Below, piece after piece: positions 2,368 through 29,537 of a DNA stretch of 34,430 nucleotides. The notes under the pieces are model-generated. The model was not told the origin of the DNA and searched no databases. It saw nothing but the letters and a program-made list of their open reading frames with translations. Positions within the stretch are counted from its first letter, which is position 1. Every line of letters starts with the position of its first letter. The DNA is from Actinomycetota bacterium (GTDB lineage: Bacteria > Actinomycetota > Acidimicrobiia > Acidimicrobiales > JAJPHE01): assembly GCA_021325435.1 (NCBI GenBank), contig JAJPHE010000092.1:1-34430 (forward strand), in the 5' to 3' direction. The position numbers and the translations under genes are program-made.

Positions 2368-3087
2368 TTAGGGCCCCCATGCCGCTGGGTCGAGGCTGCC
2401 GTCGATGGCGTCTTGGGCCACCTTGGTGAGACGGAGGTTGTGACTGCGGGCGTAGCTCCTCAACCGATCGAAGGCCTCTGCCATGCCGATGCCGGCGCGC
2501 TCGAAGATGACGCCCTTGGCCTGCTCGATCAGAACCCGGCTGTCCAGGGCCCGCATCAGCTGCTCGTTCAGCAGCTGATTCTCGATGGTGGACCAGTGCT
2601 GAACCACGCTGATGGCGGCCAGGTCGGCGAAGGCCCGGGCGACCACCAGGTCCTCGTCGGTCATCGGGGTCTGTCCCGCGTTGAACAGGTTCAACGCCCC
2701 TACGGTCCGGTCGCGCAGCCGCAACGGGAGGGCGAAGGCGGATCGGAAGCCCGCCTCCAGCGCCCCCGACGCGAAGCGGGGCCAGGGACCTACCCCCGCC
2801 TGGAGGTTCTGGTGCTCGACCGGCTCACCGGTCCGAAAGGCATCCAGGCACGGGCCCTCCTGGGCCTGAAGCTCGAACAGCTCCAGGACCCGCATCGCCT
2901 CGCTGGAAGAGGCGGCGAGGCGCAGGTCGTTGTCAGGAGACGCCAACATGACGCCGGCGGCAGAGACCCCGAGCAGACTGACGCACCGGTTGGCGAGCCC
3001 GGTCAGCAGCTCGATTACGTCGAAGTCGCTGACCAGCGTGTCGGCCAGCTCCACCAGAGATCGAACCAGAGCAGTTTCTCTTGCCAT
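2368..3087 (-). CDS. GAF-ANTAR domain protein (putative RNA-binding antiterminator)
   Basis: The 239-residue protein has a GAF domain (about 17-164, with EGPCLDAFRTGEPV and the ALPLRLRDRTVGALNLF strand) and a C-terminal ANTAR domain (about 172-228, with LIEQAKGVIFERAGIGMAEAFDRLR). ANTAR domains bind paired hairpins in nascent RNA and allow read-through of terminators; the GAF part presumably senses a ligand or redox state. The ATG at 3087 has AAGGA seven bases upstream, directly behind the stop of the preceding GAF-ANTAR gene at 3099. The in-frame ATG at 3102 has no ribosome-binding site. It is the second gene of a tandem pair; the targets are not evident. Confidence 0.88.
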   Translation of the reverse strand: MARETALVRSLVELADTLVSDFDVIELLTGLANRCVSLLGVSAAGVMLASPDNDLRLAASSSEAMRVLELFELQAQEGPCLDAFRTGEPVEHQNLQAGVGPWPRFASGALEAGFRSAFALPLRLRDRTVGALNLFNAGQTPMTDEDLVVARAFADLAAISVVQHWSTIENQLLNEQLMRALDSRVLIEQAKGVIFERAGIGMAEAFDRLRSYARSHNLRLTKVAQDAIDGSLDPAAWGP

Positions 3088-3098
3088 GTCCCCATCCT

Positions 3099-3791
3099 TC
3101 ATCCGAAACGGAGCTTTCGCTCCACCACATCCCTGGCCACATCGCGCAGCGGCCGATCGGTGCTGAAGGCATGAGCCCGCAGGGCGATCATCGCCTCCGT
3201 GACAGTGACCCCGAGCTGGACCGACACCACGCCGGCCGCGTTCTGCACGACGAAGTAGAACTCGGCGCCCAACTCCAGCTCCTCGGCCAGGGCGCCGGGA
3301 CGGGCCTCGGCCTGGACATCGAGCAACCAGTGAGCGACCACCTCGGCCATCACCAAGGCGTCGGCGTGTTGCTCGTCGCTCAACGGGCCCGAACGGTCCT
3401 GGTAGACGTTGAGCGCACCGAGGCGCACCGCTCCCACCCGCAAGGGGAAGCCGAACACGGCTCGGGCGCCGGCCTCGAGCGCCTTGGGGGTGAAGGCCAA
3501 CCAGCGAGGCGTGCGGGGATCGGCCAGATCCGGCTCCAGGACGGCCCGGTCCTGCTGGTAGGCGTCCACGCAGGGACCCTCTCCGAGGACGTACTGCAAC
3601 TCTTCGATGGCGGCGCTCACCGCGTTCGTATTGCACACCGACCCGCGGGCCTCGTCGCCAGCCATGAGCATCACCCCTGCACCGGAAACGGCGAGGACGT
3701 CGGTGGCCACCTCGCATAGCCCCCGGGCGGTGCGACCCCTGTCATCGGCGGCGAGCCCGGCGAGGATTCGAGTCAGTCGTTCTCCTGGCAC
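3099..3791 (-). CDS. GAF-ANTAR domain protein, first of a tandem pair
   Basis: The product is about 230 residues if the GTG at 3791 is the start. The GAF part contains LGEGPCVDAYQQDRAV and GFPLRVGAVRLGALNVYQ. The C-terminal helical part (NAAGVVSVQLGVTVTEAMIALRAHAF) is an ANTAR-like domain of the type common in actinobacteria. The start is uncertain: the frame stays open to a TTG at 3863, and the strongest ribosome-binding site (AGGAGGTGGAGG) serves an ATG at 3844 in another frame. The stop overlaps the ribosome-binding region of the next GAF-ANTAR gene, so the two are co-translated. Tandem, diverged GAF-ANTAR genes suggest two inputs acting on related RNA targets (inference). Confidence 0.82.
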   Translation of the reverse strand: MPGERLTRILAGLAADDRGRTARGLCEVATDVLAVSGAGVMLMAGDEARGSVCNTNAVSAAIEELQYVLGEGPCVDAYQQDRAVLEPDLADPRTPRWLAFTPKALEAGARAVFGFPLRVGAVRLGALNVYQDRSGPLSDEQHADALVMAEVVAHWLLDVQAEARPGALAEELELGAEFYFVVQNAAGVVSVQLGVTVTEAMIALRAHAFSTDRPLRDVARDVVERKLRFG

Positions 3792-5155: not shown

Positions 5156-5902
5156 CTACCGCCGGGTTCGTTGGCCCTCCGGTGGAGGCCGATCGGCTGG
5201 GTCACGAGGATGGATCAGCCACCGCAGGTGCTCTCTGGCCCCCGACAGCTCGAGGCGTCGGCCCAGCACCGGATTGTGGGTCGACTGGCTGGCGTGGCAT
5301 GCGATGGCGTCGTGCTGGCGGTCCCGGTCGATGTCGATGGTGATGTCGATCTGGTCCGGCGCCCGTCCGACGAAGCCGGTGCCCAGCTCGGCGTTGAGCT
5401 GGCCGGCGACCTGGTCGGGCAGCGCCCAGGCGAGGACGGGGATCCGGTGGGCAGCGCCGACGGCACAGGCGGCCTCGGTAGCTCGGCGGTGGTCAGGGTG
5501 GCCGGTGATGCCGCCTTGGTCGAACACGAGGAGGAGGTCGGCAGGGGCGAGGGCGTCGGCTACCAAGGCGGTCAACTCCTCGAGGGGAACCTCGCCCAGG
5601 CAACCATCCGCATAGGCCAGGAGCTCCACCTCGTCGATGCCGAGGACGTCGGCGGCGGAGCGCAGCTCTGCGGCACGAGCCTCCGCCAGAGGGGGGCCGG
5701 TCTGACCGAGGGTGGAGGCCTCGCCGTGGGTGAAGCACACGACCCGGACCCGGGCTCCGTGGTCAGCGAAGGCGGCGAGGACAGCTCCCAGCCCGAAGGA
5801 CTCGTCGTCGGGATGAGCGACCACCGCCAGCACGTCGGCCGCCCCGGGCAGCTTCTCGTATGTCCTGTCTGGGGCGGGGTCGTGGATCAAGAGCGTCTTC
5901 AT
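5156..5902 (-). CDS. PIG-L (LmbE/MshB-type) zinc deacetylase
   Basis: The 248-residue protein has both zinc motifs of the family: AHPDDES (H30, D32, D33) and GHPDH (H135, D137, H138). Relatives remove N-acetyl groups from glucosaminyl sugars (MshB, BshB) or cleave mycothiol S-conjugates (Mca). The length is between BshB and MshB/Mca. The ATG at 5902 has GAGGAG upstream and is only 5 nt behind the stop of the ArsR-rhodanese gene, so both form one operon. That context suggests a role in low-molecular-weight thiol or sulfur-conjugate metabolism, but the substrate cannot be read from the sequence. Confidence 0.88.
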   Translation of the reverse strand: MKTLLIHDPAPDRTYEKLPGAADVLAVVAHPDDESFGLGAVLAAFADHGARVRVVCFTHGEASTLGQTGPPLAEARAAELRSAADVLGIDEVELLAYADGCLGEVPLEELTALVADALAPADLLLVFDQGGITGHPDHRRATEAACAVGAAHRIPVLAWALPDQVAGQLNAELGTGFVGRAPDQIDITIDIDRDRQHDAIACHASQSTHNPVLGRRLELSGAREHLRWLIHPRDPADRPPPEGQRTRR

Positions 5903-5907
5903 TGACG

Positions 5908-6576
5908 TCACTCCTCTCCAACGGCGACCGGTAGGCCGGCCAGGCGCCACTCCGGCATCCCCTCGGCGAGGCGGCGGGCCTTGTATCCCCTGGCCCGCAG
6001 CCGTTCGACGGCCTGGGGGGCCATGACGCAGTACGGCCCGCGGCAGTAGGCGACGATCTGGGCCCGGCGGGGCAGCCGGGCCAGGGCGGCGTCCAGCCGG
6101 TCGAGGGGGACCGACAGCGCGCCAGGAATGTGCCCGGCGGCGAACTCCTCGGCCGGGCGCACGTCGAGGATGACGACGTCGCCCCGTCCGGCCCGCTCGA
6201 TCAGCTCGGCCCGGCTGACTGGCTCCAGAGAGTCCCGGGCCACGAAGTAATCGGAGACGATGCGGTCCACCTCGGCCAGGCGTCCCCGGGCCAGGTCGCG
6301 CAGCGCGACCAGGAAGGTGGCCACCTCGTCGCCGGCCAGCCGGTAGAAGACCTTGGTCCCCTCCTTGCGGGTCTCCACCAGCCGGGCCCGGCGCAGGACC
6401 TGGAGATGGGCCGAGGTGTTGGTCACCCCCATGGCGGCGTACTGGGCCAGCGCCTCGACAGTGTGCTCGCCCTGGGCCAGCACCTCCAACAACTCGATCC
6501 TCTTGGGGCTCGCCACCGCCTTGGCGGCGCGGGCGAACTGCTCGTACAGCGCATCTTTCGCCTCTCGACCCTCCAT
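5908..6576 (-). CDS. ArsR-family repressor fused to a rhodanese domain
   Basis: Residues 10-100 of 222 form an ArsR-type winged helix, with NTSAHLQVLRRARLVETRKEGTK split as recognition helix and wing. Residues 125-217 form a rhodanese domain with active-loop CRGPYC (C178, C183). The HTH half contains no cysteine, so it cannot use the Cys pair of BigR/SqrR-type persulfide sensors. The rhodanese cysteines are then the likely sensing site (inference). The ATG at 6576 follows AGGAGG. It is divergent from the metallo-beta-lactamase-rhodanese gene at 6725 and probably controls it from the 148-bp shared region. Confidence 0.9.
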   Translation of the reverse strand: MEGREAKDALYEQFARAAKAVASPKRIELLEVLAQGEHTVEALAQYAAMGVTNTSAHLQVLRRARLVETRKEGTKVFYRLAGDEVATFLVALRDLARGRLAEVDRIVSDYFVARDSLEPVSRAELIERAGRGDVVILDVRPAEEFAAGHIPGALSVPLDRLDAALARLPRRAQIVAYCRGPYCVMAPQAVERLRARGYKARRLAEGMPEWRLAGLPVAVGEE

Positions 6577-6639
6577 CCGGCGCCTCCTCTGATCCTGAAA
6601 GTGACGGTATGCCCGGGGCCCCGCAGCCCGGCAGGGCCG

Positions 6640-6672
6640 TTGGTCGCTATTTTTCCATAGATCTGTAGAATA
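6640..6672 (+). promoter_or_regulatory. Divergent promoter/operator region of the sulfur-stress genes
   Basis: Within very GC-rich DNA, bases 6647-6672 form an AT-rich island with an imperfect inverted repeat (TATTTTTC at 6648-6655, GTAGAATA at 6665-6672). TAGAAT at 6666-6671 fits a TANNNT -10 box for the plus-strand gene starting at 6725; TTGGTC at 6640-6645 is a weak -35 with a long spacer. This is the natural binding site for the divergent ArsR-type repressor. Confidence 0.45.
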
Positions 6673-6724
6673 CTGGAGGAGCGGTCCCGGTTGGGCTCAT
6701 GCACCGGCAGCGGAGGACTGTGCG

Positions 6725-8071
6725 ATGACCGACATCGTCTCGATCGTCGACGAGGGCCTGGGCAACTCGTCCTACGTGGTCGACCTGGGCGACGGCCGAG
6801 CCCTGGTGCTCGACCCCGAGCGCGACCCCGCTCCCTATTTGGAGGCGGCCGAGCGGCGCCACCTGCGAGTGGCCTACACCGTGGAGACCCATCTACACGC
6901 CGACTTCGTCTCCGGAAGCGGCGAGCTCGCCGCCCGGGGAGCCACCGTGGTGGCCTCGGCCGCCGGGAACCGCCAGTTCGCCCACCACGGGCTCGGCGAC
7001 GGCGACGAGCTCGACCTGGGCGGCCTGACGCTGCGGGCGATGGCCACCCCGGGCCACACCCCCGAGCAGGTCTCCTACCTGCTGCTCGACGGGGGCCGCC
7101 CGCTGGCGCTGTTCTCTGGCGGGTCGCTGCTGGTCGGCGCGGTGGCCCGCACCGACCTGATCGCCCCGGACCAGACCGAACCGTTGGCCCGACAGCTGTG
7201 GCGGTCGTTGCACGAGCGGATCCTCACCCTGCCCGACGACCTGACCGTCTATCCCACCCACGGGGCGGGGTCGTTCTGCTCGGCGCCGTCCGGCGCCGAG
7301 CGAACCACCACCATCGGACGCGAACGCGCCACCAACCCGCTGCTCGCCGCCCCCGACGAGGACGCCTTCGTCAAGGCGCTCCTGGATCGGCTCGGCAGCT
7401 ATCCGGCCTACTTCCGCCGCCTCGCCGAGGTGAACCGGCGCGGCCCGACCGTGTACAGCACCGAGCCGCCCGCCCTGACGCCACTGACCGTCAACCAGAT
7501 TCAGAACCTCGTCGCCGAAGGAGCTCAACTGGTCGACGCCCGACCCGTCGACGCCTTCGCCGCCGGGCGCGTCCCCGGATCGCTGTCGAACCCTCTACGC
7601 CCCCAGTTCGCGACCTGGCTGGGTTGGCTCGTCGAGCCCGCCCGGCCCCTCGTGTTCGTCCTCGCCGCCACCCAGGACCGCACCGAGGTCGTCCGCCACG
7701 CCCTCAACGTCGGTTACGAGAACCTCGCCGGCGAGCTGGCCGGCGGCATCGCCGCCTGGGAGGCCGCCGGCCTCCCCCTCGGGCGTATCGACCTGGTCGA
7801 CGCGGCCAAGGTCACCGGCCCGGTCCTCGACATCCGCCAGGACGCCGAGTTCGCCGCCGGGCACCTCCCCGGGGCCAACCACGTCGAACTCGGCACGCTG
7901 ATCGAAGCCCCGGAGGAAGGACCGCTGACCCTCATGTGCGGCCACGGGGAACGGGCCATGACCGCCGCCAGCCTCCTGGCCGCTCGCGGCCGCACCGGCC
8001 TCGCCGTCGCCGTGGGAGGCCCGGACCACTGGTCCGCCGCCACCGGCCGGCCCCTCGAGACCGAGCGATGA
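6725..8071 (+). CDS. CstB-like persulfide dioxygenase/sulfurtransferase (MBL-rhodanese-rhodanese)
   Basis: The 448-residue protein begins with a metallo-beta-lactamase fold: THLHADFVSG (H56, H58, D60; the last His of HxHxDH is Phe61) and TPGHTPEQ (H111). Residues 255-355 form a rhodanese-like domain with no catalytic Cys (LAATQDR at the loop). Residues 362-446 form a second rhodanese domain with Cys405 in LMCGHGERA. This order matches CstB of Staphylococcus, which oxidises low-molecular-weight persulfides and makes thiosulfate. A GGAGG lies eight bases before the ATG. The next gene overlaps by ATGA. Divergence from an ArsR-rhodanese regulator supports a role in persulfide or sulfide detoxification. 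Confidence 0.9.
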   Translation: MTDIVSIVDEGLGNSSYVVDLGDGRALVLDPERDPAPYLEAAERRHLRVAYTVETHLHADFVSGSGELAARGATVVASAAGNRQFAHHGLGDGDELDLGGLTLRAMATPGHTPEQVSYLLLDGGRPLALFSGGSLLVGAVARTDLIAPDQTEPLARQLWRSLHERILTLPDDLTVYPTHGAGSFCSAPSGAERTTTIGRERATNPLLAAPDEDAFVKALLDRLGSYPAYFRRLAEVNRRGPTVYSTEPPALTPLTVNQIQNLVAEGAQLVDARPVDAFAAGRVPGSLSNPLRPQFATWLGWLVEPARPLVFVLAATQDRTEVVRHALNVGYENLAGELAGGIAAWEAAGLPLGRIDLVDAAKVTGPVLDIRQDAEFAAGHLPGANHVELGTLIEAPEEGPLTLMCGHGERAMTAASLLAARGRTGLAVAVGGPDHWSAATGRPLETER

Positions 8072-9456
8072 CCTTGACTGTGCCGCCGGGCCGGCCGATC
8101 CGACTCGGCCTGCGCCAGAACCTGGCCCAGTTCGCCCTCCTCGTCGGGGTCAACGCCCTGGTCGGCGGGATGATCGGCCAGGAACGCACCGTCCTGCCGC
8201 TCATCGGCACCCGGACCTTCCACCTCCACGCCGTCACCGCCGCCCTCACCTACATCGTGGCCTTCGGGGCGGTGAAGGCGGCCACCAACTTCTTCGCCGG
8301 CACCCTGTCGGACCAGGTCGGCCGCAAGCCGGTCCTGGTCACCGGCTGGCTCATCGGCATCCCGGTCCCGTTCCTCCTCGCCTTCGGGCCCGGGTGGGGC
8401 TGGATCATCCTCGCCAACGTCCTGCTCGGCATCAACCAGGGGCTGACCTGGTCCACCACGGTGATCATGAAGATCGACCTGGTCGGCCCCCAACGCCGGG
8501 GCCTGGCCATGGGCCTCAACGAGGCCGCCGGCTACGGGGCGGTGGCCGTCACCGCCTTCGCCACCGGACTCATCGCCGCCCGGGCCGGGTTGCGCCCCGA
8601 CCCGTTCTTCCTCGGCATGGCCTTCGCCGGGCTCGGCCTCGGCCTTTCCACCCTGTTCGTGCGGGAGACCCACGGACACGCCCGCCACGAGGCCCGGACC
8701 CACGTCGCCGCCTCGGCCGAGGCCCACGCCGGGCTGTCAACCAAAGAGGTCTTCGCCCTCACCAGCTTCCGCGAGCGCGCCCTGTCGGCGGCCAGCCAAG
8801 CCGGCATGGTCAACAACCTCAACGACGGCGTGGCCTGGGGCATCTTCCCCCTCTACTTCGCCGCCGGGGGCCTCTCCATCGGGCGCATCGGCGTCCTCGC
8901 CGCCCTCTACCCCGCCGTGTGGGGCCTCGGCCAGCTCGTCACCGGAGCGCTGTCCGACCGCATCGGGCGCAAGTGGCTCATCGCTGGAGGCATGTGGACC
9001 CAGGCCGTGGCCATCGGCCTCATCGCCGTGGTCCACGGCTTCTGGCCCTGGGCCGGCGGAGCGCTCCTCCTCGGGGCCGGCACCGCCATGGTCTACCCCA
9101 CCCTGCTGGCCGCCATCGGCGACGTCGCCCACCCCAGCTGGCGGGCATCGTCGGTAGGGGTCTACCGGCTGTGGCGCGACGGCGGCTTCGCCGTCGGCGC
9201 CCTCCTCGCCGGGGCCATCGCCGATGCCCTCGGCATGACCGCCGCCATCTGGGCCGTCGCCGGCCTCACCGCCGCCTCCGGGGCCGTCGTCGCCGTCCGC
9301 ATGTACGAAACCCATCGCCGACCAACCGCCCGGCCGACCGGGGGAACGGGCGGTGGCGGCCGTCGCCCCGTGAACCGGGTCCCGGAATCGGGCCCATCGG
9401 CTCTAGCAAGCCGACCCCTGCCGTCCCACGCTGTGATCGTGAGGTGGAGCCGATGA
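8068..9456 (+). CDS. MFS transporter, probably part of sulfur detoxification
   Basis: The 462-residue protein has about twelve hydrophobic segments and two MFS signature loops: GTLSDQVGRKPVL in the N-terminal half and GALSDRIGRKWLI in the C-terminal half. The ATG overlaps the stop of the preceding MBL-rhodanese gene (ATGA), and its own stop overlaps the next start the same way, so it is the middle gene of a tightly coupled operon. The substrate is unknown; export of a sulfur oxyanion or thiol product would fit (inference). The frame is open upstream to 6691, but that part is a shadow of the MBL-rhodanese gene. The last 40 or so residues are polar and non-conserved in appearance. Confidence 0.9.
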   Translation: MTLTVPPGRPIRLGLRQNLAQFALLVGVNALVGGMIGQERTVLPLIGTRTFHLHAVTAALTYIVAFGAVKAATNFFAGTLSDQVGRKPVLVTGWLIGIPVPFLLAFGPGWGWIILANVLLGINQGLTWSTTVIMKIDLVGPQRRGLAMGLNEAAGYGAVAVTAFATGLIAARAGLRPDPFFLGMAFAGLGLGLSTLFVRETHGHARHEARTHVAASAEAHAGLSTKEVFALTSFRERALSAASQAGMVNNLNDGVAWGIFPLYFAAGGLSIGRIGVLAALYPAVWGLGQLVTGALSDRIGRKWLIAGGMWTQAVAIGLIAVVHGFWPWAGGALLLGAGTAMVYPTLLAAIGDVAHPSWRASSVGVYRLWRDGGFAVGALLAGAIADALGMTAAIWAVAGLTAASGAVVAVRMYETHRRPTARPTGGTGGGGRRPVNRVPESGPSALASRPLPSHAVIVRWSR

Positions 9457-9725
9457 TGTGGTGGGGACCGGGCGGCGGGTGGGGCTGGGGCGACTGGCTG
9501 GCCATGGCGCTCATGATGCTGGCGTTCTGGGGCCTGATCGCCGCCGTGGTGTTCGCAGTCATCAGGTCGGCGGGCCACTCCCCCGGCCCCACCCACGCCA
9601 ACGGCCCACCGCCCCCGGGACCAGGCGGGGACCAGGCCCGGCGGATCCTCGATGAGCGCTTCGCCCGGGGCGACATCGACGCCGAGGAGTACCGGAGCCG
9701 CCGCGAGCTGCTGCGCTCCCCGTGA
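9453..9725 (+). CDS. Small membrane protein with SHOCT domain
   Basis: The 90-residue protein starts with a Trp/Gly-rich segment (MMWWGPGGGWGWGDW) and has one membrane helix (about 16-42). A Pro/Gly linker follows, then a C-terminal SHOCT motif (ARRILDERFARGDIDAEEYRSRRELL). SHOCT domains are short C-terminal helices of uncertain role, often in membrane-associated proteins. The start overlaps the MFS stop (ATGA) with GAGGTGGAG just upstream, making it the last gene of the operon. No terminator is evident in the 27 bases before the convergent gene. Confidence 0.85.
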   Translation: MMWWGPGGGWGWGDWLAMALMMLAFWGLIAAVVFAVIRSAGHSPGPTHANGPPPPGPGGDQARRILDERFARGDIDAEEYRSRRELLRSP

Positions 9726-26716: not shown

Positions 26717-28092
<1,376 letters not shown>

Positions 28093-28096
<4 letters not shown>

Positions 28097-28410
28097 TGAA
28101 CCGTCTCCTCCGGTTCGGGGCGACGCTGACCCCGGCCCTTGAACATCTCGAGCATGCGGTCGGTGACGACGAAACCGCCGACGACGTTGAGGGTGGCGAG
28201 GATGACGGCGAGGAAACCCACCGCCTGCAGCAGGGTGGTGTCGGCGTGGATGATGACTTCGATCGCCCCCACCAGGATGATGCCGTGGATGGCGTTGGTC
28301 CCCGACATGAGCGGGGTGTGCAGGATGCTCGGCACCTTGGAGATGACGTAGAAGCCGAGGAAGGCGCAGAGCACGAAGATCGTGAACTCGCCCAGGAAGC
28401 CCTGGTTCAT
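28093..28410 (-). CDS. pntAB: NAD(P) transhydrogenase alpha-2 subunit (membrane part of PntA)
   Basis: The 105-residue protein has three membrane helices and the signature GGFVVTDRMLEMFK, the C-terminal membrane portion that is fused to PntA in Escherichia coli but separate in many actinobacteria and alphaproteobacteria. The ATG at 28410 overlaps the alpha1 stop (ATGA) and its own stop overlaps pntB. The open frame upstream to 28473 is inside the alpha1 gene. Confidence 0.95.
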
Positions 28411-29537
28411 GAGGGGTTCTCCAGCAGCAGTCGGGTGGGCTCGTGCGGCACGTCGCCGTCTCGGGTGACGCACGTGGTGGCGAGGATCTCGTCGTCCCAG
28501 TCGGGGGCGAGCTTCCCGTCGGCCAGCATCAGGCCCAGCAGGTTGGCGATGTTGCAGGCGTAGAGCTGGCTGGCGTGGGTGGGCAGCCCCGACGCCGGCA
28601 GGGTGACGCCGACGACGGTCACGCCGTGGTGGTCGATCTCCTGACCCGGCTGGGATATGTCGACGTTGCCGCCGGTGTCCGACGCCAGGTCGATGACCAC
28701 CGATCCGGGCTTCATGCCCGCCACCATCTCTCCGGTCAGCAGCACCGGGGCGGGCCGGCCGGGGATCTGGGCCGTGGTCACCACCACGTCGACGTCGGCG
28801 ACGACGGGCGCCAGCGCGTCGCGCTGGCGGCGCTGCTGCTCCTCGGCCTGCTCCGCCGCGTAGCCGCCGGTCCCTTCGGCCGTCTCGAGCCGGAGGTCGA
28901 CGAAGCGGGCGCCGAGCGATTCGACCTCGCCTTTGGCCGCCGCCCGGACGTCGTAGGCCTGCACCTGGGCGCCGAGGCGGCGGGCGGTGGCGACCGCCTG
29001 CAGGCCGGCCACGCCGGCCCCGAGGATCAGAACCTTCGCCGGGGGCACGGTGCCGGCCGCCGTCATGAACATCGGGAAGAACCGGGGCAGCCGGTCGGCG
29101 GCCATCAGCACGCCCCGGTAGCCGGCCACCGTCGCCTGCGACGACAGGGCGTCCATGCTCTGGGCCCGGGTGATGCGGGGCAGCAGCTCAAGGCTGAACG
29201 CCGTCACCTTGCGCTCGGCCAGCACCCGGACCGTGTCGAGGGACCGGCCCGGGCTGAACAGGGCGATGAGCGTCGAGCCCTCGGTCAGGGAGCGGGCCTC
29301 CTCGGGGCTCGGCCCGTGCACTTTCACCACCACTTCGGCCCCGAGCGCCTCGGCCGCCGACCCGGCCACGGAGAGGCCGGCGTCTCGGTAGGCGCCGTCG
29401 GGGAAGCCGGCCCGGGCGCCGGCGCCGGACTGGACGGCCAGCTCCACCCCGGCCGAAAGCAGCGAGGGGGCGACAGCGGGAACCATCGCCACCCGGCGCT
29501 CGCCCGCGACGGTTTCGGTCGGGATGCCCACCTTCAT
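28407..29537 (-). CDS. pntAA: NAD(P) transhydrogenase alpha-1 subunit (NAD-binding PntA)
   Basis: The 376-residue soluble subunit starts MKVGIPTETVAGERRVAMVP and has the NAD loop GAGVAGLQAVATARRLGAQV followed by YDVR. It ends in the domain-I pattern with VIDLASDTGGN and CNIANLLGLML. It is the first gene of the pntAA-pntAB-pntB-MBL operon, all joined by overlaps. No ribosome-binding site precedes the ATG; TAACTA about 14-20 nt upstream could be the -10 of a near-leaderless transcript. Confidence 0.95.
   Translation of the reverse strand: MKVGIPTETVAGERRVAMVPAVAPSLLSAGVELAVQSGAGARAGFPDGAYRDAGLSVAGSAAEALGAEVVVKVHGPSPEEARSLTEGSTLIALFSPGRSLDTVRVLAERKVTAFSLELLPRITRAQSMDALSSQATVAGYRGVLMAADRLPRFFPMFMTAAGTVPPAKVLILGAGVAGLQAVATARRLGAQVQAYDVRAAAKGEVESLGARFVDLRLETAEGTGGYAAEQAEEQQRRQRDALAPVVADVDVVVTTAQIPGRPAPVLLTGEMVAGMKPGSVVIDLASDTGGNVDISQPGQEIDHHGVTVVGVTLPASGLPTHASQLYACNIANLLGLMLADGKLAPDWDDEILATTCVTRDGDVPHEPTRLLLENPS

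Follow-up and report, generated by a model that had tools for sequence, protein, structure and literature searches.

What does an amide-cleaving enzyme do in a gene set that otherwise appears to deal with persulfides? This question is raised by a divergent locus on a 34,430-base contig (JAJPHE010000092.1, C39 in our numbering, hereafter the window, i.e., the whole of this contig) from the draft genome of an actinomycetotal bacterium of the order Acidimicrobiales (GCA_021325435.1; 4.0 Mb, 160 contigs). There, genes for a PIG-L (LmbE-like) deacetylase and for an ArsR-type regulator fused to a rhodanese domain stand back to back with genes for a metallo-beta-lactamase (MBL)-rhodanese-rhodanese enzyme, an MFS transporter and a short SHOCT-like protein. 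The locus is probably a persulfide/polysulfide (sulfane-sulfur) response locus, whose PIG-L enzyme would hydrolyse an amide of a small thiol or of its persulfide. The evidence that carries this reading is that, in many other genomes too, PIG-L genes of this kind stand close to sulfane-sulfur genes; by its gene content, the locus itself is a sulfane-sulfur response operon.

Recurrence of the PIG-L gene beside sulfane-sulfur genes

Two samples, with at least five genomes in common, were searched for relatives of the PIG-L protein. A scan of named genomes, from which the best 80 of 417 relatives were kept, provided 65 close (loci L129-L193, 46-65% identity) and 15 far relatives. Whole-genome searches in 148 genomes of the window's order found PIG-L relatives at E ≤1e-30 in 19 genomes, including that of the window, MBL-rhodanese relatives (E ≤1e-20) in 86 and the ArsR-rhodanese regulator in 46. 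The counts rest on tblastn because the gene caller missed genes of lower GC content (L100, L105, L122, L127 and L128 came out empty or nearly so). A sulfane-sulfur marker lies within 5 kb at 50 of the 65 close PIG-L loci, and at least two markers at 43, with the caveat that some loci stem from the same draft genome or seem almost identical (L152, L153) and that some contigs are short on both sides. By comparison, no such marker lies at this distance from any of 40 control PIG-L genes, which comprise the full set of 39 non-focal genes in eight carrier genomes and one gene from a ninth (the pool being 95 PIG-L matches in 18 genomes, of which 18 are focal). Among the far relatives, a marker was found near 1 of 15, in Streptomyces (L195), and this one is placed by the tree inside the PIG-L clade described below. 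In the order, 13 of the 18 other genomes with a PIG-L relative have at least one marker within 5 kb of it, 10 have at least two, and the ArsR-rhodanese gene is present in 7. The gene association exceeds chance, as it recurs in other genomes, and the outcome that an earlier note on this DNA named as refuting its proposal, a PIG-L gene confined to this one neighbourhood, is contradicted by these counts and by the Cryobacterium divergon described next.

Several arrangements recur around the PIG-L gene. In one, the ArsR-rhodanese gene is followed by genes for a cysteine desulfurase (in some cases), a DsrE-like protein, an SQR-like protein and PIG-L (L129, which is genome G033, L130, L133 and L146; genomes G120, G043 and G083). 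In another, thioredoxin, DUF302 and PIG-L genes follow one another beside a CsoR-type regulator gene (L141, L145, L157, L165). Hence the sulfane-sulfur loci in which the PIG-L clade stands have regulators of two unrelated types, ArsR-rhodanese and CsoR-type. The arrangement closest to the window is that of Cryobacterium fucosi (L160), in which the ArsR-rhodanese gene is divergent from an MBL-rhodanese, MFS, PIG-L and DsrE-like series with 4-bp overlaps; PIG-L is near the end of the enzyme operon there, and adjoins the regulator in the window. On a contig of 3.6 kb (L167), an MFS gene likewise precedes PIG-L. In an Ilumatobacteraceae draft (L150), the genes of this divergon are found together, with PIG-L convergent with the ArsR-rhodanese operon and outside it. 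Since Cryobacterium and this draft both unite the genes of the window's set, that set is not unique. Several junctions are short, as far as start sites from a simple gene caller can tell: 4-5 bp between SQR and PIG-L (L129, L132, L133), and 4-bp overlaps for DUF302/PIG-L (L145, L162, L165, L192), MFS/PIG-L (L160, L167) and PIG-L/DsrE (L160). A SufS-like cysteine desulfurase is a repeated neighbour as well (15 loci).

Two further genes were observed at such loci. A TehB-like methyltransferase is encoded at 16 of them, directly downstream of PIG-L in L143, L149 (8653-9291), L174 (8635-9273) and L188; it might conceivably act on a thiol or a persulfide. In several relatives, an extra gene separates the ArsR-rhodanese gene from the DsrE-like gene (L133:5217-6413, L126:5461-6579, L108:5156-6340); that of L133 resembles NifS/IscS, scoring 409 bits with the NifS model, which is below the cut-off.

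The remainder of the divergon forms a set of its own. ArsR-rhodanese, MBL-rhodanese and MFS genes occur together in 14 of the 16 regions around close MBL-rhodanese relatives, the other two being cut by contig ends, and the MFS gene adjoins the MBL-rhodanese gene in 15 of the 16, the remaining one being cut in the same way. PIG-L is an accessory that has been taken up by several kinds of sulfur locus. In many relatives, the ArsR-rhodanese gene is followed by a gene for an ArsM-like methyltransferase of about 201 aa, which is not part of the window's set (L109:6905-7510, L111:9068-9673, L113:3318-3923, L114:7668-8273, L150:9274-9879); the label reflects the best NCBIfam matches, which are of that kind and under cut-off.

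The proteins of the locus

The PIG-L protein of the window belongs to the PIG-L superfamily (PF02585, 97.5 bits against a cut-off of 28.2) and retains the AHPDDE and GHPDH motifs (alignments A1 and A4); H30, D32, D33, H135, D137 and H138 are invariant in alignment A4. The earlier note described it as a thiol-type deacetylase, an assignment that is not supported in this form, as the protein falls outside the named thiol deacetylase families with 38-60 bits against cut-offs of 182-277. Identity with Mca (TIGR03446, 39.2 against 277.15 bits), with MshB (TIGR03445, 38.5 against 224.35 bits) and with BshB1 or BshB2 (TIGR04001 and TIGR04000, 60.1 against 182.5 and 195.25 bits) was rejected on these scores and on the tree. 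In the tree, the window protein and its relatives form one group of 45 of the 95 rows (Shimodaira-Hasegawa-like approximate likelihood ratio test, SH-aLRT, 99*, the star denoting an approximate value from a quick method), apart from the Mca/MshB-like group and from the BshB1-like group of the same genome, which encodes a separate Mca of 324 bits. Seven residues mark the clade (L38, C56, S63, T142, W159, R193 and Q196), each occurring in 42-45 of its 45 rows against 0-12 of 50 other PIG-L proteins, and the catalytic residues are intact across it. The predicted model (mean predicted local distance difference test score, pLDDT, 87.9) matches chitobiose deacetylases, MshB, LnmX, BshB and other deacetylases with Z scores of 19.8-22.4, which are too close to rank.

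The only cysteines of the ArsR-rhodanese protein are C178 and C183, both in the rhodanese loop CRGPYC, and all 43 non-redundant proteins that combine the two domains, the window protein among them, have both. Among these proteins, no cysteine of the ArsR part is kept throughout, and the window protein has none before residue 178. It does not qualify as a BigR/SqrR sensor, having no cysteine pair in its ArsR part and scoring 52.3 bits against a cut-off of 155 for the BigR family model NF040642. The rhodanese loop may therefore be the sensor in the window protein.

The MBL-rhodanese-rhodanese protein has as its best PDB sequence matches 3tp9 (E 7.7e-77) and 3r2u (2e-45), and its model (mean pLDDT 88.3) aligns with both, at Z 43.5 and 40.2, respectively (323 residues for 3r2u). 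Its layout, an MBL domain followed by rhodanese domains, is that of a type III persulfide dioxygenase (PDO). The third His of the THxHADH motif is replaced by Phe or Tyr in this type (PMC6060420), and indeed the window protein has F61, as 44 of 48 non-redundant relatives (window included) have Phe or Tyr. The 2-His-1-Asp iron site, however, is incomplete: H56 and H111 are retained, and the Asp position is occupied by Gly133. The same Gly is found in 37 of the 48 proteins, one of which (L180) has a broken alignment, and 36 of the 42 full-length proteins have it, while the remaining metal-site residues are retained in nearly all relatives. Cys405 of the second rhodanese domain is retained; the sole other cysteine is C185, so that the first rhodanese domain has none. 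The description of this enzyme as CstB-like in the earlier note is thus borne out for the domain layout and fails at the iron-ligand Asp.

The Asp in question corresponds to the third ligand of persulfide dioxygenases, Asp154 in ETHE1 (PMC4383860), and its replacement in AcPDO (D130 to Ala, Glu or His, no Gly variant being among those given) leaves 0.5-2% of the activity (PMC6060420). Gly133 was considered as proof of a dead enzyme, and this was dropped because the motif is shared by the guide sequence for Scpdo and by a Streptomyces gene with equivalent neighbours. ScPDO of Streptomyces coelicolor is active on glutathione persulfide (GSSH), with a Vmax of 1.19 micromol O2 per min per mg. Translation of the guide RNA that was published for its gene gives TGGSLL, which is the Gly motif of the window enzyme (PMC7533328). 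In Streptomyces sp. MMG1533, FTGGSLLIG is encoded by a gene that stands ahead of rhodanese, TauE-like and CsoR-type genes (L256, which overlaps L195). Together, the guide RNA and this gene suggest that ScPDO (SCO0618) apparently carries the Gly as well. The Gly-for-Asp replacement sets apart a branch of the type III dioxygenases whose metal site is unusual, and the conserved loss of the iron-ligand Asp in a branch that seemingly includes an active enzyme would question what persulfide dioxygenases need there.

The features of the locus are collected in the table below. Five genes with the strands and order given in the earlier note are confirmed by open reading frame positions and Pfam matches. 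The note counted five of six junctions as overlapping, a few bases long or at the shared promoter; five genes have four internal junctions rather than six, and all four are tight or shared: a gap of 5 bp between PIG-L and ArsR-rhodanese, 148 bp between the divergent genes, and overlaps of 4 bp at MBL-rhodanese/MFS and at MFS/SHOCT. Membership of the SHOCT-like protein in the conserved set, which the note had assumed, is not supported, as tblastn found no match to it in the 16 regions around close MBL-rhodanese relatives, although such a search has little power for a protein this short.

Features of the divergent locus (window coordinates)
Feature	Position	Strand	Details
PIG-L (LmbE-like) metal-dependent N-deacetylase/amidase	5156-5902	-	248 aa; PF02585 97.5 bits; sulfane-sulfur-associated clade
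ArsR-type winged-helix regulator with fused rhodanese domain	5908-6576	-	222 aa; PF01022 (HTH_5) and PF00581
Divergent intergenic region common to both transcripts	6577-6724		148 bp; both promoters and operator expected here
Metallo-beta-lactamase/rhodanese/rhodanese protein (type III persulfide-dioxygenase-like)	6725-8071	+	448 aa; Lactamase_B and two rhodanese stretches (Pfam)
MFS transporter	8068-9456	+	462 aa; PF07690 (MFS_1) 138 bits; no cysteine
Short SHOCT-like membrane protein	9453-9725	+	90 aa; PF09851 26.1 bits, just under the cut-off of 27

Elsewhere in the window, three overlapping minus-strand genes (26717-29537) resemble by eye a pyridine nucleotide transhydrogenase operon, and two adjacent, mutually related minus-strand genes (2368-3671) resemble by eye GAF/ANTAR-type regulators. 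Rfam found a single tRNA and nothing else.

The PIG-L substrate and competing explanations

In the reading that we favour, the ArsR-rhodanese protein would repress both transcripts from the common promoter region, and modification of C178/C183 in its rhodanese loop by sulfane sulfur would release it. The MBL-rhodanese-rhodanese enzyme would then oxidise or transfer sulfane sulfur and the MFS protein would export a product, while the PIG-L enzyme would most likely cut an amide bond in a low-molecular-weight thiol, or in its per- or polysulfide adduct, and so set it free to be oxidised, exported or recycled. The likeliest class of substrate for PIG-L would be N-acyl thiols and their per- or polysulfides.

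The earlier note supposed that persulfides of a mycothiol-like thiol are processed here. In a strict form of this proposal, the PIG-L enzyme would be a Mca-like amidase that splits a mycothiol per- or polysulfide into N-acetylcysteine persulfide and glucosaminyl inositol (GlcN-Ins), feeding the dioxygenase and the exporter. This is rather unlikely, even though the genome of the window encodes MshA-like (424 bits, cut-off 462), MshC-like (412, cut-off 485), MshD (250, cut-off 163) and Mca (324, cut-off 277) proteins and is likely to make mycothiol, with only two of the four (MshD and Mca) exceeding their cut-offs. It also fits the proposal that the named PIG-L carriers are mostly Actinomycetota and that the predicted fold is MshB-like (Z 22.2). 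However, the focal PIG-L protein scores only 39 bits as Mca and 38 as MshB next to a true Mca encoded separately. Moreover, of the 15 carrier genomes tested, 8 exceed the cut-offs of MshC, MshD and Mca alike, and the other 7, all of them drafts, exceed none. In five carriers (four Dormibacterota and one other bacterium), none of the three is convincingly matched: their MshC matches are at the level of cysteinyl-tRNA synthetase, MshD is absent at 1e-20 and Mca reaches at most 154 bits. Markers lie near PIG-L in three of these five (L171, L182, L186) and in neither L151 nor L179. Intermediate scores were obtained for a Dormibacterota draft (MshC 391, Mca 225) and a draft named Chloroflexi (MshD 98, Mca 218). 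Drafts miss genes, yet the same three missing in five genomes is more than we would expect, and mycothiol is therefore unlikely to be the sole substrate of PIG-L. The earlier proposal thus keeps its footing as far as PIG-L recurs with sulfur genes in a genome that plausibly makes mycothiol, and mycothiol cannot be taken for granted as the substrate that all carriers share. The distant carriers were examined because, within the order, looking for dependence on mycothiol through the presence or absence of MshC proved uninformative and was given up: strong MshC-like matches (about 380-450 bits, none above 485) occur in most of the 148 genomes. As a separate observation, sixteen glycosyltransferase-like matches to the MshA model lie on one contig of the window's genome (G000:C153:44687-93790), perhaps a polysaccharide cluster.

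Several findings weigh against a persulfide role for PIG-L and would be expected if it were a passenger, i.e., a sugar or natural-product deacetylase co-located by repeated operon shuffling. PIG-L was found in 0 of the 16 regions around close MBL-rhodanese relatives, and a close PIG-L (E 1e-30) is missing from 13 of 14 other genomes whose MBL-rhodanese relative reaches at least 54% identity, the exception (G045) carrying it at a separate sulfur locus. Since the core divergon is thus mostly without PIG-L, it works without it. No marker lies within 5 kb of 15 of the 65 close PIG-L genes, some on short contigs, nor at 5 of the 18 loci in the order. The Fisher values overstate the association because some of the marker queries were themselves taken from the surroundings of PIG-L genes and because the loci are related to one another. 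In addition, the titles of solved PIG-L structures point to enzymes that act on a variety of N-acetyl sugars. A passenger is nevertheless quite improbable, given the large contrast between 50 of 65 close loci and 0 of 40 other PIG-L genes, which persists despite the overstated Fisher values, and given two different regulators and several different sulfur partners at overlapping junctions. The proposed sensing and control meet objections of their own. Of the 43 regulator relatives, 15 carry cysteines in the ArsR part at positions 34 and 86 (window numbering), perhaps a second, SqrR-like sensing pair, and sensing in this family may therefore not be confined to the rhodanese loop. A palindrome search of the intergenic region of the window showed no operator above chance: the best candidate (6650-6673, 8 of 12 arm positions) was dropped, as 263 of 300 shuffles score as well. 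The corresponding palindromes upstream of ArsR-rhodanese in relatives reach 11 of 12 in L112 and L111 (0 and 1 of 300 shuffles as good) and 10 of 12 in L150 (7 of 300). A promoter scan found no sigma-70-like site. The cysteine pair of the 15 relatives, the ArsR family of the regulator and the ArsM-like gene (under cut-off) adjoining it in several relatives could also point to a response to arsenic or another soft metal, with the MFS protein as exporter. Such a response is very improbable for this locus, as the ArsR part of the window protein has no cysteine, the universally kept cysteines are in the rhodanese loop, the partners are SQR, DsrE, rhodaneses and dioxygenase-like proteins, and the ArsM-like methyltransferase is not in the window's set.

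A sulfane-sulfur response locus hence remains the reading that we prefer. More tentatively, the PIG-L clade could represent, across Actinomycetota and Dormibacterota, a dedicated sulfane-sulfur enzyme that cuts the N-acyl bond of a per- or polysulfidated thiol, be it mycothiol or another depending on the host, and that acts in the window beside a carboxylate-less branch of type III dioxygenases.

Relation to known systems

Bacterial persulfide clearance is usually told through SQR, rhodaneses, dioxygenases and exporters, and we know of no scheme that includes N-acyl hydrolysis of a thiol persulfide. A full-text search of one literature library returned nothing linking persulfide, PIG-L and mycothiol, and nothing on LnmX together with leinamycin or PIG-L; titles and abstract beginnings, two result sets being viewed in part, gave no PIG-L in such sulfur operons. 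If the proposed function is true, a recurrent metal-dependent amide hydrolase would be an unrecognised step in persulfide clearance, one that could explain how thiol persulfides are carried, cleaved and reused in bacteria that lack glutathione.

The PIG-L enzyme shares fold and metal-site motifs with Mca, MshB and BshB, from which it differs by lying far below the family cut-offs and in a separate clade. Its second-best PDB sequence match is LnmX (5bmo, Z 21.7), presumably from the leinamycin cluster. The leinamycin family carries hydropersulfide-derived sulfur (PMC8479088).

The regulator resembles BigR/SqrR in its ArsR fold and its association with a sulfane-sulfur regulon. In BigR/SqrR, the two sensing cysteines are within the ArsR protein itself (PMC9774590), whereas the window regulator has cysteines only in the fused rhodanese domain. 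The ScCsoR circuit of S. coelicolor (ScCsoR, ScPDO, TauE and a rhodanese; PMC7533328, whose main text does not contain the term PIG-L) is likewise an actinobacterial system in which a sulfane-sulfur sensor controls a type III PDO. It differs in its CsoR-type regulator and in having a sulfite exporter where the window has an MFS protein. The MBL-rhodanese-rhodanese layout is also that of the cst operon of Staphylococcus aureus, represented by 3r2u, which we take to be CstB, and governed by a CstR-type regulator. In the alignment, the GG of the window enzyme stands opposite GD in 3r2u, in which the iron-ligand Asp is retained.

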